Positions 19,627 to 24,938 of a stretch of 34,303 nt of DNA are shown one piece after another. The position numbers and the translations under genes were made by a program. The notes below the pieces were generated by a model. It worked only from the letters and a program-made list of their open reading frames with translations. It was not told where the DNA came from and searched no databases. Origin of the DNA: Synechococcus sp. UW140 (GTDB lineage: Bacteria; Cyanobacteriota; Cyanobacteriia; PCC-6307; Cyanobiaceae). Every line of letters begins with the position of its first letter. The first letter of the stretch is position 1. The stretch is taken from assembly GCA_945877115.1 (NCBI GenBank), contig CAMCQR010000022.1:1-34303 (forward strand), read 5' to 3'.

Positions 19627-19668
19627 GTAGTCATTGATGCCAAAAACCCTAATCATTTCCTGTATGAT
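19627..19668 (+). promoter_or_regulatory. Candidate promoter with NtcA-like box for the guanidine operon
   Basis: GTA (19627-19629), eight bases, then TGC (19638-19640) gives one mismatch to the NtcA consensus GTA-N8-TAC. After 22 bases comes TATGAT (19663-19668), a good -10. The cyanobacterial NtcA-activated promoter layout is GTAN8TAC-N20-24-TAN3T, so the spacing fits. Transcription would start near 19675, just before the riboswitch. No usual -35 is present at the right distance. The -10 is fairly convincing; NtcA control is inference. Confidence 0.45.
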
Positions 19669-19684
19669 GCCGGGGCGGAAAAGA

Positions 19685-19782
19685 TTTCTAGGGTTCCGAT
19701 TTCGATGGTTCCATCGGAATGCTGGTCCAAGAGAAATCCACCGGCTCTTGCTGGTGACACGGAGGGATAAAAGCCCGGGAGG
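19685..19782 (+). promoter_or_regulatory. Guanidine-I (ykkC) riboswitch aptamer
   Basis: The RNA carries the conserved guanidine-I signature in order: CTAGGGTTCCG (19688-19698), CTGGTCCAAGAG (19722-19733), ACACGGAGGGATAAAAGCCC (19757-19776) and GGGAGG (19777-19782). The stems are visible: TTCCGAT/ATCGGAA (19694-19700 with 19713-19719), CACCGGC/GCTGGTG (19739-19745 with 19750-19756, one G-U pair), and GGG/CCC closing the ATAAAAG loop (19764-19776). The family binds guanidinium and usually turns on exporters or guanidine-degrading genes. Here it sits directly upstream of a guanidine hydrolase gene, which fits exactly. Confidence 0.95.
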
Positions 19783-19803
19783 CCGCTTCATCAACAACCT
19801 CCC
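19777..19803 (+). promoter_or_regulatory. Expression platform hairpin competing with the aptamer
   Basis: GGGAGG at the 3' edge of the aptamer (19777-19782) is exactly complementary to CCTCCC (19798-19803), which ends two bases before the gdmH ATG (19806). No U-tract follows, so a classic terminator is unlikely. The inference is that, without guanidine, this hairpin blocks ribosome access at the start. With guanidine, GGGAG is held in the closing P1 stem (with TTTCT at 19685-19689) and translation proceeds, giving an on-switch. Confidence 0.55.
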
Positions 19804-19805
19804 CC

Positions 19806-21029
19806 ATGACTTCTGCACCGGAGCCCCCGTCTGCCGTCCCCTTTGATCGTTTGCCTCCATCCGGCCCGGCTGATGTTCCCCAGAACACCGAGGCCGCCAG
19901 GGCTCTTGCCATGGAGCAACGCCTACCGTTGACCGGCTGGCAACAGGAGGTTGACCAAGGCCTGCGTTACGGCCTTGAGGCGGCGGAAAGCATTGTCGAT
20001 CGTCGCATCTCCACCTTCTCGCGGGGGGAACTGCCCCATTACGCGGGGATCAATACCTTCATGAAAGCCCCGTACATCGAAGATGTCCACCGTGTCGGTG
20101 AATTCGATGTGGCCATTCTTGGTGTACCCCACGATAGTGGTACCACCTACCGCCCAGGCACCCGCTTTGGGCCCCAGGGAATCCGGCGAATTTCTGCTTT
20201 ATACACCCCCTATAACTATGAAATGGGAGTCGATCTACGGGAGCAGATCCGACTCTGTGATGTGGGAGACATCTTTACGATTCCCGCTAACAATGAAAAA
20301 AGCTTTGATCAAATATCCAAGGGAGTCGCCCATGTTTTTGCCAGTGGGGCTTTCCCCATCATCCTCGGTGGTGATCATTCCATCGGCTTCCCGACCCTAC
20401 GGGGAGTATGCCGCCATCTAGGCGATAAAAAGGTCGGTATTATTCACTTTGACCGCCATGTCGACACCCAGGAAATTGACCTGGATGAGCGGATGCACAC
20501 GACCCCCTGGTTCCATGCAACCAACATGGCCAATGCCCCTGCCAAAAATCTGGTCCAACTCGGCATTGGGGGTTGGCAAGTTCCCCGGGAAGGGGTCAAG
20601 GTCTGCCGTGAGCGCGGAACCAACATCCTCACAGTCACGGATATCTGTGATATGGGCTTAGAAGCGGCAGCACGCTTTGCCATCGACCGGGCTACCGATG
20701 GCACTGATTGTGTTTATATCTCCTTTGACATTGACTGTATTGATGCCGGCTTCGTACCAGGTACTGGATGGCCTGAACCGGGCGGACTGCTGCCCAGAGA
20801 AGCCTTGAAGCTGTTGGAACTGATTGTGCGCAATGTGAATGTTTGCGGGCTTGAAGTGGTGGAAGTTTCCCCTCCCTATGACGTCAGTGACATGACCTCT
20901 CTCATGGCCACACGGGTCATCTGCGACACGATGGCCCATCTCGTGGTGAGTGGACAATTGCCCAGAAAGTCGCCCCCAGCTTGGATCCATAAGGAAGCCA
21001 ACATGGAAGTTGATCAAAAGTGGAGGTAG
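19806..21029 (+). CDS. gdmH: Nickel-dependent guanidine hydrolase, arginase family
   Basis: Predicted to hydrolyse free guanidine to urea and ammonium in the cytoplasm. The 407-residue product is a ureohydrolase with both metal sites intact: GGDHS (H191), FDRHVD (D216, H218, D220) and SFDIDCID (D308, D310). Three features place it with Synechocystis GdmH (Sll1077) rather than agmatinase or arginase. First, it has an N-terminal extension of about 90 residues before DVAILGVPHDSG. Second, it has the unusual FDRHVDTQ (most relatives have FDAHxD). Third, it has a tryptophan (W322) in PGTGWPEPGG, where agmatinases have Thr; a pocket-narrowing Trp is described for GdmH. The riboswitch upstream and the hypA/hypB pair downstream support guanidine as substrate and nickel as metal. 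The start is the first ATG after the riboswitch hairpin. Confidence 0.93.
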   Translation: MTSAPEPPSAVPFDRLPPSGPADVPQNTEAARALAMEQRLPLTGWQQEVDQGLRYGLEAAESIVDRRISTFSRGELPHYAGINTFMKAPYIEDVHRVGEFDVAILGVPHDSGTTYRPGTRFGPQGIRRISALYTPYNYEMGVDLREQIRLCDVGDIFTIPANNEKSFDQISKGVAHVFASGAFPIILGGDHSIGFPTLRGVCRHLGDKKVGIIHFDRHVDTQEIDLDERMHTTPWFHATNMANAPAKNLVQLGIGGWQVPREGVKVCRERGTNILTVTDICDMGLEAAARFAIDRATDGTDCVYISFDIDCIDAGFVPGTGWPEPGGLLPREALKLLELIVRNVNVCGLEVVEVSPPYDVSDMTSLMATRVICDTMAHLVVSGQLPRKSPPAWIHKEANMEVDQKWR

Positions 21030-21034
21030 CCCTC

Positions 21035-21391
21035 ATGCATGAAATCGACATGACCCGTGCCCTGCTGGCATCCCTGCAGGAGTGGAAATTGAGCCACGCC
21101 CCTAGGGATCCCCAGGTAAACACGGTTCACCTTGAAGTTGGGGCCTTCACCTGTGTTGAACCCGATCAGTTGGTCTTCACCTGGGATGCGGCAATCAGCA
21201 ACAGCTGGCTGCAGGGGGCTCGCCTAGCCATCGATCCCGTTCCCTTGATGGGTCGCTGTGTTCGTTGCCAGAACCCTTATGAACCGAAGCCAAACCAGGG
21301 TTACCGCTCCCCCTGCTGCAGCCATCCTATGGAGGAAATAATCAGTGGTCGTGAACTGCGTATTCGCAGTGTTGATTACACCTTTGCCTGA
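21035..21391 (+). CDS. hypA: HypA-type nickel chaperone for the guanidine hydrolase
   Basis: Small nickel-binding accessory protein, 118 residues. It starts at the ATG at 21035 because HypA proteins need MHE at the N-terminus, where His2 binds nickel; an ideal GGAGG lies 8 bases before it (21022-21026). The zinc domain has C75-VR-C78 and then, after 15 residues, CCSH (C94, C95, H97), where standard HypA has a second CxxC. His97 may replace the last cysteine. The C-terminus [14 protein letters not shown] is family-typical. It starts 5 bases after the gdmH stop and 5 bases separate it from hypB, so it is part of the same operon. No hydrogenase gene is nearby, so a role in loading nickel into GdmH (the role named GhaA in Synechocystis, from memory) is more likely than hydrogenase maturation. 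Confidence 0.92.
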
Positions 21392-21396
21392 TTGTC

Positions 21397-22125
21397 ATGC
21401 ACATGCCCCTTGAAGACACCATCGGCCTCAATTTGCTGGCCGCCAATCAGCACCAAGCCGAACACAATCGCGAACAATTTGACGCCTGGCATCTGCTTTG
21501 TCTCAATCTCATGAGCAGTCCGGGCGCCGGTAAGACCTCCCTATTGGAGCGGTCACTGGCCCAGCTGGCCAACGAATTCTCCATGGCCGTGCTGGAAGGG
21601 GACATGACCACCCAGCTCGATGCCGAACGACTTGAAGCCGTGGGGATCCCGGTGATCCCCATCACCACAGGTCGAGCCTGTCATCTCGATGCCTCCATGG
21701 TGAGGGGTGGCATGAAGCTGCTGGCCGCCCGCCTTGATCCCGCCGAACTCGACCTGCTCTGGGTCGAAAATGTTGGCAATCTCGTCTGTCCGGCAGAATT
21801 TGAAGTGGGAGAGCATCGCAAAGTAGCCCTTTTGAGCGTCACGGAAGGGGAAGATAAACCCCTCAAATATCCAGTGATGTTCCGCGAGGCCGATTGTGTG
21901 TTGATCACAAAGATTGACCTACTTCCCTATCTATCCATCGATTTGGATCGCCTCGAAAACCATATTCGCCAGGTCAATCCTATCTGCACCATATTGCGAG
22001 TTTCTGCCAACACCGGAGCAGGTTTCGATGCCTGGCATGGCTGGCTGCATCAACAGCGCAACGCCCAGGCCCCTGGCTTCGCCCCCCGGGCCCCGCACTC
22101 CCTCCGGGAGCCCGCCGTCCTTTGA
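21397..22125 (+). CDS. hypB: HypB-type GTPase for nickel insertion
   Basis: G3E-type GTPase of 242 residues that hands nickel to its target enzyme with HypA. The P-loop [14 protein letters not shown] (about 40-53), [25 protein letters not shown] with the metal-binding C95-H96, [17 protein letters not shown] with C131, and TKIDLLPY are all HypB features. There is no histidine-rich N-terminal nickel store; the first 25 residues hold only scattered His ([15 protein letters not shown]). The C-terminus ends in a Pro/Arg-rich stretch. The ATG at 21397 is used; a second Met lies two codons later. It is located between hypA and the importer genes, consistent with a GdmH-specific nickel-loading pair rather than a hydrogenase set, since hypC-F are absent here. 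Confidence 0.93.
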
Positions 22126-22164
22126 GCCCCCTTCCCTTCTTCCCCAAGCCCTGCGCCGAACCCC

Positions 22165-23172
22165 ATGCCCCCCTCCCTCCGTTCCAGCCAGCGCAAACGG
22201 CTCTCGGCCTTGTTGGCCCTCAGCCTGATCACTGTTTCATTAGGCGGTTGTGGCAAGAGCGTGCCTGCAGATCCACCGGTCCGCATCGGCTACAGCGCCT
22301 GGCCGGGCTGGTTCCCTTGGAAAGTCAGTGAAGAAAAGGGGTTGTTTAGCGCCGCCGGGGTGCCGGTCAAATTGACCTGGTTTGATGGCTATCTCGATTC
22401 CATCAATGCCCTCAATGCCGGTCAGCTGGACTGCAACAGCCAGACCCTCAATGACACGCTCAGCTCCATGGCCGGTGGTGCCGATTTGCAAGTCGTGCTG
22501 ACGAACGATATTTCGACAGGAAACGACCAAATCATCGCGGCACCAGGCATCAAGAGCGTTCAGGACCTCAAGGGCAAAAAGATCGCTGTAGAAGAGGGAA
22601 CGGTCGATCATTATCTGTTATTGCTTGGCCTCAGTAAGGCACGACTTTCCCAGTCCGACATTACCTTTGTTCCCCTAGAGACCGGCGCGGCGGCGGCGGC
22701 CTTCGTGGCCGGCAAGGTGGATGCGGTGGGTGTCTTTGCTCCCTTCACGACCCAGGCCCTCAAACGGCCCGGCAGCAAAGTCCTATTCAGCTCGAAGGAT
22801 TTCCCCGGAGCCATCAGCGACCATTTGGTCTGTCGCCGCGACTTCGTCAGCCAGCATCCAGACAAGGTTCAAAAAATCGTCAACACCTGGTTTGCCACCC
22901 TCCAGGAGATCAAGGCCAACCCAGCCCCCTCCCTAGCCATCTTGTCCAAGCGGGCGGGGGTCAGCGAAGCCGATTACAAGCTTTACGACGCCGGAACGAC
23001 CATCTACAGCCTGGCCGAGAACCGTCAGGCTTTTCGTCCCGGCACCAGCATGACGGCCTTGCCCTACGCAGCCCAGCAGATCAGTGGCTTCCTCAAGGCG
23101 ATAGGGATGGCGAAGACTCCTCCGCAGCTTGAGGGCCTGTTCCAGCCCCAATTCGTGGACGCGGTAAAATGA
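22165..23172 (+). CDS. Lipoprotein solute-binding protein of a guanidine-linked ABC importer
   Basis: Periplasmic solute-binding protein of the SsuA/TauA/THI5 (NMT1-like) class, 335 residues. A signal peptide with a basic start (RSSQRKR) and hydrophobic core ends in the lipobox LGGC, so Cys29 is probably lipidated. The mature part begins with VRIGYSAWPGWFPWKVSEEKGLF, seen here as IGYSAWPGWFPW and EEKGLF, then LNAGQLDCNSQTLND, IKSVQDLKGKKIAVEEGTV and VDAVGVFAPF. These are standard positions for the two-lobe fold. Substrate specificity cannot be read from sequence; guanidine is inferred from its place in the riboswitch-controlled operon. It starts 39 bases after hypB, and its stop overlaps the permease start (ATGA). 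Confidence 0.88.
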   Translation: MPPSLRSSQRKRLSALLALSLITVSLGGCGKSVPADPPVRIGYSAWPGWFPWKVSEEKGLFSAAGVPVKLTWFDGYLDSINALNAGQLDCNSQTLNDTLSSMAGGADLQVVLTNDISTGNDQIIAAPGIKSVQDLKGKKIAVEEGTVDHYLLLLGLSKARLSQSDITFVPLETGAAAAAFVAGKVDAVGVFAPFTTQALKRPGSKVLFSSKDFPGAISDHLVCRRDFVSQHPDKVQKIVNTWFATLQEIKANPAPSLAILSKRAGVSEADYKLYDAGTTIYSLAENRQAFRPGTSMTALPYAAQQISGFLKAIGMAKTPPQLEGLFQPQFVDAVK

Positions 23173-23960
23173 CTTCTTTGGGTACATTCTCAGGCCGGGG
23201 CAGGAGACACCTGCTGGTCCATCCTTGGAGCCTGGGTCTACTTGGCATTCTGCTTGTTTTCGGCCTTTGGGCAACCATCTCTAGCCTGGGTGTCGTCGAT
23301 CAACTGTTTTTGCCAAGTCCGGCCGCAGTCTTTTTGGCCGGACAGGAGCAATTGGCCCAGGGTCAGCTGGTGGCCGATCTGGTGGCCAGCATCAGGCGAG
23401 TCTTTGGCGGTTTTGCCCTCTCGGCCCTGGTAGCCATCCCCCTGGGCATCGCCATGGGGGCCAATACCACCCTTTGCCGCCTGCTGGAGCCGCTGCTTGG
23501 AATTCTGCGATACATGCCCGCCCCAGCCTTCATCCCTCTGCTTATTATCTATTTCGGCGTCGATGAGCTGCCAAAGATTTTATTGATTTTCATTGGCACC
23601 CTATTTTTTAATACTTTAATGATTATGGATGCCGTTAAATTTGTACCCAGTGAATTAATTGAAACAGCCCTAACTCTAGGCGGCAAAAGAGCTGATTTAC
23701 TGACCCGAGTGATCGCACCTTACATTATTCCTCAAGCCTTAGATGCCTTTCGCGTGAACATGGCGGCTGCCTGGAATTTGGTGATTGTTGCCGAACTGGT
23801 GGCAGCGGAAGATGGCCTGGGCAAGCGCATCAGCTTGGCCCAACGCTTCCTACGCACAGATCAGATTTTTTTGGGCTTAATTGTCATTGGCATTATTGGA
23901 CTATTGATTGATCTTGGCTTTCGCATGCTAATGCGTAGACGTTGTAGTTGGGCCCAATAA
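23169..23960 (+). CDS. ABC importer permease, guanidine operon
   Basis: Integral membrane subunit of the SsuC/TauC/NrtB class, 263 residues with about six hydrophobic segments. The cytoplasmic coupling loop is seen as ELIETALTLGGKRADLLTRV followed by APYIIPQALDAFR, and AAAWNLVIVAELVAAEDGLG is the usual late motif of this class. The start ATG overlaps the upstream stop by four bases, so translation is coupled. The middle of the gene is unusually AT-rich for this window: 16 of 60 bases are G or C at 23581-23640, against 42 of 60 in pgi at 18601-18660. It should form the channel with the neighbouring ATPase and lipoprotein. Guanidine as cargo is inferred from context. Confidence 0.9.
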   Translation: MTSLGTFSGRGRRHLLVHPWSLGLLGILLVFGLWATISSLGVVDQLFLPSPAAVFLAGQEQLAQGQLVADLVASIRRVFGGFALSALVAIPLGIAMGANTTLCRLLEPLLGILRYMPAPAFIPLLIIYFGVDELPKILLIFIGTLFFNTLMIMDAVKFVPSELIETALTLGGKRADLLTRVIAPYIIPQALDAFRVNMAAAWNLVIVAELVAAEDGLGKRISLAQRFLRTDQIFLGLIVIGIIGLLIDLGFRMLMRRRCSWAQ

Positions 23961-23970
23961 AACACTTTTC

Positions 23971-24738
23971 ATGGACCTCATTCTCGACGGCGTTTGCAAA
24001 AGCTACCCCCAATCCAGGGGAAGTCTGGCCATTCTTGATGACATCAATTTCAGCATTCACACGGGCCAATTTGTGGCCCTCTTAGGAAGTTCTGGTTCTG
24101 GTAAGTCAACCGTCATGAGGCTAGTGGCTGGGCTTGAGTTTCCCAGCAATGGTCGAATCACTTTTGACGGTCTGCCGGTGGGCGGACCCGGATCGGACCG
24201 GGGGATGGTATTTCAAAAATACAGTCTTTATCCCTGGCTCACCGCCGCGCAAAATGTTGCCTTCGGCATGGAGCTCCAAGGCCTGCCCCGTTTGGAAGTG
24301 CGGGAACGTACGGCATACTTCCTTGAGGTGGTGGGTCTTCGTGATGCGGGCGGCCGTCTGCCCCGCGAGCTCTCCGGAGGGATGCAGCAGCGCATCGCCA
24401 TTGCCAGGGCCCTGGCGGCCCAACCCAAGTTGTTGTTATTGGACGAACCCTTTGGGGCCCTGGATCTGCAGATTCGTGAATCCATGCAGGAATTTCTCTA
24501 TCAGCTGTGGCAGCAGACAGGCCTTTCAGTCCTTCTGATCACTCACGATATTGACGAGGCCCTCCTGCTTGCCCAACAGATCCATGTCCTGGCGCCGCGG
24601 CCGGGTCGCATCGTCCGCAGTCTCATGGTGGACTTCGACCATGGCGACATGATGGCCCTGCGGCTGTCCACTCCATTCCTGGAGCGCCGCCAGGAGCTGG
24701 CCAACGGCCTACGACAGTTGGATGGAACGCTGACTTAA
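23971..24738 (+). CDS. ABC importer ATPase, guanidine operon
   Basis: ATP-binding subunit of 255 residues, of the SsuB/TauB/NrtD class. Visible are Walker A GSSGSGKST (39-47), the Q-loop VFQKYSLYPWLT, the signature LSGGMQQR (134-141), Walker B LLLLDEPFGALD and the switch histidine in THDIDEALLL (H192). All are intact. It begins 10 bases after the permease stop and is the last gene of the operon, followed by two small hairpins. It powers the importer whose binding protein and permease precede it. The class also transports nitrate, taurine and sulfonates, so only the operon context points to guanidine. Confidence 0.9.
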   Translation: MDLILDGVCKSYPQSRGSLAILDDINFSIHTGQFVALLGSSGSGKSTVMRLVAGLEFPSNGRITFDGLPVGGPGSDRGMVFQKYSLYPWLTAAQNVAFGMELQGLPRLEVRERTAYFLEVVGLRDAGGRLPRELSGGMQQRIAIARALAAQPKLLLLDEPFGALDLQIRESMQEFLYQLWQQTGLSVLLITHDIDEALLLAQQIHVLAPRPGRIVRSLMVDFDHGDMMALRLSTPFLERRQELANGLRQLDGTLT

Positions 24739-24773
24739 CAACCTTGCCATCAGGTTGGGCCTGCCGCAGGCCC
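24739..24773. terminator. Paired hairpins at the end of the guanidine operon
   Basis: CAACCT/AGGTTG (24739-24744 with 24752-24757) is followed at once by GGGCCTG/CAGGCCC (24757-24763 with 24767-24773), a 7-base perfect stem with a 3-base loop. They lie just after the ATPase stop and over the last codons of the convergent small gene. No U-tract follows on the plus strand. A role in ending convergent transcripts is plausible but unproven. Confidence 0.4.
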
Positions 24774-24938
24774 TGCGGGACTTTGGGGCTGGATCAGGAG
24801 ATCCGGGGGAATATTCAAGTAAACGGCTTCCTTGAACAGGGCCTGTTTGGCGGCCGCATTGCCTTCGGCCTGGGCGGCGGCGTAGCGGAGCTGCAAAGAG
24901 GCGATCAGGGCGGATCGTCGCGGATCATCGCTGGCCAT
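24750..24938 (-). CDS. Small hypothetical protein downstream of leuS
   Basis: Predicted 62-residue protein from the ATG at 24936-24938, beginning MASDDPRRSALIASLQLRYA and continuing with AAQAEGNAAAKQALFKEAVYLNIPPDLLIQP. It looks like a compact helical protein with an alanine-rich amphipathic stretch and no membrane segment. I do not recognise a family. The start is 7 bases after the leuS stop, so it is probably co-transcribed with leuS. The open frame extends a further 45 bases into leuS, but that start is less likely. Ala and Leu codon use matches the high-GC neighbours rather than the guanidine operon. Confidence 0.6.
   Translation of the reverse strand: MASDDPRRSALIASLQLRYAAAQAEGNAAAKQALFKEAVYLNIPPDLLIQPQSPAGPAAGPT

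Follow-up and report, generated by a model that had tools for sequence, protein, structure and literature searches.

The cyanobacterium Synechococcus sp. UW140 carries, on contig CAMCQR010000022.1, a gene cluster that raises the question of whether, and under which signals, a picocyanobacterium can use free guanidine as a source of nitrogen. The whole stretch of DNA analysed, 34,303 nucleotides in length (positions 1 to 34,303 of the contig), is referred to here as the window. Between positions 19677 and 24738 its + strand holds, in this order, a Guanidine-I riboswitch aptamer, gdmH, hypA, hypB and the binding-protein, permease and ATPase genes of an ATP-binding cassette (ABC) importer. A sequence-only reading of the window had described a self-contained operon for guanidine use in a small genome of high G+C content; the genome description agrees with the assembly (G000; 2.71 Mb in 185 contigs, 95.3% complete) and with the 63.9% G+C of the window. 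The guanidine-use proposal is supported by the riboswitch, by the match and marker residues of GdmH, by the operon's own hypA and hypB and by the importer genes. The operon genuinely belongs to a type already published, of which it is an unremarkable example, and it very probably serves guanidine assimilation in the manner of the Synechocystis GdmH system.

The gene gdmH (19806–21029, + strand) encodes an arginase-family protein of 407 amino acids. Set against agmatinases and other ureohydrolases, a comparison that the sequence-only reading had proposed, residues 28–407 match the solved Synechocystis guanidinase (7esr/7oi1) with 776 bits and the protein matches the solved guanidinase of Nitrospira inopinata (9fek) with 575 bits, whereas the best other solved ureohydrolase reaches 171 bits. 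The GdmH marks claimed earlier are present, namely DRHVD at residues 216–220 and W322 within GTGWPEPGG, and T114 was found within DSGTTYRPG; T114 and W322 occupy the positions of T97 and W305 (Synechocystis numbering), which have been named as guanidinase specificity residues (PMC11410670). The Pfam Arginase match begins at residue 101, leaving an N-terminal extension of about 100 residues, close to the roughly 90 first estimated. These comparisons place the enzyme in the guanidinase line of descent. The assembly contains one other arginase-family match, a weak one of 47 bits. For comparison, 80 related loci were taken from among the matches listed from a scan of named genomes, the total being larger. 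In a tree of 55 proteins (that of the window and those of 54 of the 80 loci) the window GdmH is placed with those of freshwater picocyanobacteria; no nearest neighbour is well supported, and the bootstrap was unsettled.

The aptamer (19677–19783, + strand) is matched by the covariance model RF00442 over its full length (positions 1–107) with 86 bits against a gathering threshold of 63 (E = 3e-14), which bears out the earlier identification; it is the only aptamer match at the gathering threshold in the entire window. In riboswitches of the Guanidine-I class, bound guanidinium permits gene expression. In the window and 43 picocyanobacterial loci a conserved GGGAG lies 22–38 bases ahead of the first in-frame ATG, and no run of more than four T was found in these leaders. 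Each of the five non-picocyanobacterial loci (L048, L050, L070, L078 and L079) shows GGGAG paired with a downstream CC(T)GGG-(C/T)TTT, forming a terminator-like stem with energies of −29.6 to −39.7 kcal/mol (z = −7.6 in L050). Because the picocyanobacterial leaders are without such a stem, unlike these five, the readout of their riboswitch is probably translational. A candidate hairpin, GGGAGG:CCTCCC, spans the end of the aptamer to the start codon of the window (19777–19803, + strand) and is weak (−9.7 kcal/mol, z = −1.9); as a general block of the start site it was rejected, its z values in the window and the 43 loci lying between −2.9 and +1.7. The stretch 19755–19812 folds no better than shuffled sequences (z = −0.1).

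Upstream of the aptamer, a second conserved element was found. A box GTA-N8-YAC, a spacing of 22 bases and a −10 element NANNNT, starting 47–51 bases upstream of the aptamer, occur in 43 of the 44 picocyanobacterial loci, window included, against 0.1 loci of 44 expected from dinucleotide shuffles; the remaining locus (L041) has a perfect box without a NANNNT −10 element. After thinning to 29 loci of less than 60% identity the element is retained in 28 (0.09 expected), and about 200 bases farther upstream it was found in none of 28 stretches. The loose −10 form was chosen after the same sequences had been viewed, so that the count of 43 of 44 is not a blind test, and the related loci are not independent even after thinning. 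Of the thinned loci, 20 have the box at −50; they were selected without reference to the −10 element, and its A and T are present in all 20 of them. A reverse-strand control on the thinned loci was positive in 3 of 29, the box being nearly palindromic. In the window the putative NtcA-type box is GTAGTCATTGATGC (19627–19640, + strand), with one mismatch to GTA-N8-TAC; the −10 element reads TATGAT (19663–19668, + strand), exactly 22 bases past the box and nearest to consensus, and transcription would start near 19675 on the same strand. The sequence-only reading had omitted this promoter, although the region that it delimited begins at the first base of the box.

The gdmH gene is followed by hypA (ghaA-like; 21035–21391, + strand), for a nickel chaperone, and hypB (ghaB-like; 21397–22125, + strand), for a nickel-delivery GTPase. 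The listed open reading frame (ORF) of hypA starts with GTG at 21020, and the genome-wide Pfam match begins at 21035, the ATG of MHE; with the start taken at this ATG, gdmH and hypA are separated by five bases, as are hypA and hypB, in agreement with the spacing reported earlier. HypA, with its MHE start, reaches 85.9–86.5 bits with PF01155 (cut-off 28.9), and HypB, in which the GTPase domain was found, 283 bits with TIGR00073 (cut-off 121). The operon hypA is the sole HypA match in the assembly, and a search there for the large subunit of NiFe hydrogenase found none, urease being the only other nickel enzyme searched for; GdmH would therefore be the only evident client of this HypA and HypB. 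The second cysteine pair of HypA reads SPCC in picocyanobacteria (the window, L003, L018, L027, L039 and L046) and CPTC in L048 and L070, and the zinc site of the picocyanobacterial protein may be altered. The importer genes begin 39 bases after hypB with that of the binding protein (22165–23172, + strand), which exceeds the cut-off of the SsuA-family model TIGR01728 and has, by eye, a lipobox-like start; the permease (23169–23960, + strand) and the ATPase (23971–24738, + strand) exceed those of BPD_transp_1 and ABC_tran, respectively. An importer of three overlapping genes had been claimed; the three genes are there, and the overlaps hold only in part, with four bases shared by the binding-protein and permease genes (23169–23172) and a gap of ten between the permease and ATPase genes.

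From these parts the following sequence of events may be proposed. As the conserved promoter suggests, transcription would start from an NtcA-activated promoter and thus need nitrogen shortage, and the Guanidine-I aptamer in the leader would let the genes be expressed upon binding guanidinium. The ABC importer would bring guanidinium into the cell, HypA and HypB would load nickel into GdmH as proposed from Synechocystis GhaA and GhaB, and GdmH, by its close homology, would convert guanidinium to urea and ammonium. The urea would then be split by urease, which is present in nearly all gdmH-bearing relatives and was not found in this assembly.

Several observations weigh against this scheme. At the level of the enzyme, the NCBIfam agmatinase model TIGR01230 is exceeded marginally (177.3 versus 174.3 bits) and the NCBIfam search of GdmH turned up no guanidinase model; the protein might thus be an agmatinase, guanidinobutyrase or arginase linked only incidentally to a riboswitch. 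The two solved guanidinases nevertheless score far above all other ureohydrolases, the marker threonine and tryptophan are both present and a guanidine aptamer stands directly upstream, so that the marginal model match appears outweighed by the comparison with solved structures and such an assignment is barely credible. HypA falls below the cut-off of the NCBIfam hypA model TIGR00100 (79.8 versus 88.1 bits). Guanidinium as the cargo of the importer is something that we infer, and the binding protein, besides matching the SsuA family model, is closest among solved proteins to binders of aliphatic sulfonates, nitrate and taurine; one of these compounds, or urea, could be carried instead, with guanidine entering by another route. 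The family names of such importers, however, are often no guide to their cargo. In most related loci, too, the importer genes form part of the operon under guanidine control, and a review ascribes guanidine import in Synechocystis to this operon's ABC transporter (PMC12186494), which makes a different cargo unlikely. Urease alpha and UreD were both searched for in the 95.3%-complete assembly, and neither turned up; since the product urea needs urease, the description of the operon as self-contained is doubtful for the yield of nitrogen. If urease were truly absent, only one of three nitrogens would be gained and the operon might serve detoxification rather than nutrition. An importer would be useless for that purpose, and, among the 251 genomes of the family, urease alpha is present in 83 of the 86 that carry gdmH (E of 1e-100 or better), the three without it being G000 (95% complete), G137 (85%) and G199 (72%). 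Urease occurs in 14 of 19 congeners, G000 counted among the 19; one near relative (G251) has it and another (G253) does not. That the 185 contigs miss the urease genes is more probable than a loss, and a role in detoxification instead of assimilation is improbable.

A further point against the scheme concerns the promoter. The box of the window ends in TGC, alone among the 43 elements; 29 of the 43 read GTA-N8-CAC and only seven are the perfect GTA-N8-TAC, most −10 elements read GANNNT or CANNNT instead of TANNNT, and the strict form with a −10 of TAN3T is found in five of 49 loci (0.5 expected). The element might accordingly be the box of another regulator or a plain promoter. Against this, a spacing of 22 bases and a position near −41.5 are typical of NtcA-activated promoters, and the perfect form with TAN3T is found in three of the five loci from other cyanobacteria (L050, L078 and L079). 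The consensus GTAN8TAC is stated in PMC12282138, and ammonium represses sll1077–sll1082 in Synechocystis (PMC10094980), which fits control by NtcA. We regard a regulator other than NtcA, or none, as rather doubtful, and infer that NtcA binds the conserved element; because this NtcA-type promoter is conserved upstream of the aptamer, expression would probably need nitrogen shortage besides guanidine. NtcA control of this operon is not described in the excerpts of PMC12930504, PMC12282138, PMC10094980, PMC13192157 and PMC8136909, and may be reported by Itzenhauser et al. (2025), Funck et al. (2022) or studies of the Synechocystis NtcA regulon.

Among the 251 genomes, gdmH was found in 86, the aptamer in 83 and both in 82; G044 has the aptamer without gdmH at the threshold, whereas in G024, G074, G097 and G186 a gdmH was found but no aptamer match. 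In G044 (L088) the gdmH following the aptamer matches over only about 180 residues and is possibly a decaying copy, and G024, G097 and G186 are picocyanobacterial, with a full-length gdmH and no aptamer match over threshold. Of the 80 related loci, 67 contain all six genes, and many that do not are cut contigs. The aptamer model matches 48 of the 80, and the 32 without a match are all from Prochlorococcus (L046, L047, L049, L051–L069, L071–L077 and L080–L082); an Rfam search of five of these gave no aptamer. Each of these 32 Prochlorococcus loci has gdmH, and nearly every one on a long enough contig has the other operon genes as well. An NtcA-type site upstream of Prochlorococcus gdmH was unsupported, the strict form occurring in 0 of 32 loci (10.7 expected from simple shuffles) and the loose form in one (1.6 expected). 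Carriage of gdmH by viruses was likewise rejected: viral contigs gave no pattern match, and the ten phage records matching gdmH are all less than 60% identical, with none covering 80%.

Relatives extend the operon in two ways. A gene for a type III glutamate–ammonia ligase (573 bits against a cut-off of 470; nearest solved chain, glutamate–methylamine ligase) follows hypB in 28 of the 80 loci (for example L003, 3975–5321; L036 is cut after the gene), lies between hypA and hypB in L070 (10590–11939) and persists as a remnant in L012 (7460–7669). At E of 1e-120 or better this glutamine synthetase is present in 49 of the 86 genomes with gdmH and in none of the 165 others; the Fisher value of 7e-29 is overstated, the genomes being related. 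The relatives bearing it are freshwater lineages, and no close copy was found in the genome of the window, in which the best matches are 40–42% identical over parts. Directly after the ATPase gene, 56 of 68 loci (for example L005, 15342–16502, and L046, 13957–14982) encode a Rieske oxygenase alpha subunit, which has Rieske and Ring_hydroxyl_A domains and carnitine monooxygenase as its nearest solved relative; the count is motif-based and may miss divergent copies. Glutamine synthetase within a guanidine operon is not described in the excerpts of PMC12930504, and the main text of PMC10119275 mentions neither 'NtcA' nor 'glutamine synthetase'.

The operon is flanked by pgi upstream on the same strand and by leuS downstream, converging; a tRNA gene search of the window found none. 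A GC-rich inverted repeat seen by eye at 24757–24773, a possible end of transcription, lies inside a short opposite-strand ORF of 62 residues (24750–24938, − strand), which stands between leuS and the operon end and converges on the ATPase gene. In ten of 24 congener stretches (L098–L121) the leuS match ends at most about 0.6 kb from pgi, within 50 bases in seven of these; one stretch (L114) has gdmH beside pgi, and in 13 neither gene was found near pgi in the 1.5 kb read (in L098 because the contig ends). In L027 the end of pgi lies upstream and leuS downstream of the gdmH operon, and in L028 the end of pgi lies upstream. The adjacency of pgi and leuS in congeners and the arrangement in L027 and L028 make it probable that the operon arrived in, or was relocated to, the space between pgi and leuS in this genome and a few related ones. 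In the near relative G251, gdmH and pgi would lie about 34 kb apart, if L014 corresponds to its contig C47.

These results support the view that freshwater picocyanobacteria are probably able to use guanidine, and the comparison adds a nitrogen-starvation-type promoter before the riboswitch and the loss of the sensor in Prochlorococcus. The added glutamine synthetase and Rieske oxygenase hint at handling of the natural substrate or of the products. A wider picture, for and against which we find the case evenly balanced, would combine three elements: a two-input gate in picocyanobacteria, with transcription initiated by NtcA under nitrogen shortage and the transcript released by guanidine, a short terminator-free leader having taken the place of the terminator of other cyanobacteria; the freshwater type III glutamine synthetase and the widespread Rieske protein as additions, possibly capturing ammonium and freeing guanidine from substituted guanidines; and a Prochlorococcus branch that dropped the sensor and kept the operon. 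Of these findings, the conserved promoter and the genes added to the operon merit further study.

Among known systems, the Nitrospira inopinata locus likewise joins a Guanidine-I riboswitch to a guanidinase of the same clade, and differs in having an APC permease, not an ABC importer, and no nickel chaperones nearby (PMC11410670). The likeness to the Synechocystis locus that had been pointed out is confirmed: sll1077–sll1082 of Synechocystis sp. PCC 6803 runs in the same order from Guanidine-I riboswitch to ATPase, with an SsuA-family binding protein (PMC8390497, PMC10094980), and Wang et al. (2021; PMC8390497) give this gene order and describe such operons as common. Compared with Synechocystis GdmH, the first 27 residues of the window enzyme are its own, and the window leader is without the terminator-like stem of the five non-picocyanobacterial loci (the Synechocystis leader was not among them). 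The presence of the operon in a picocyanobacterium, held earlier to be its notable part, has been in print since 2023: Dore et al. (2023; PMC10119275) reported a riboswitch–speB2–hypAB–TauABC-like cluster in Synechococcus and Cyanobium and the gene cluster in Prochlorococcus, and their Pro-eCAG_004 and Syn-eCAG_001 are the same picocyanobacterial operon, with the riboswitch upstream included for Synechococcus. They also place a Rieske gene downstream in most Synechococcus and Cyanobium genomes, whereas the motif found none in the window. The operon set is thus already known from Synechocystis and from picocyanobacteria, and what is fresher here is the conserved NtcA-type promoter together with the operon additions.

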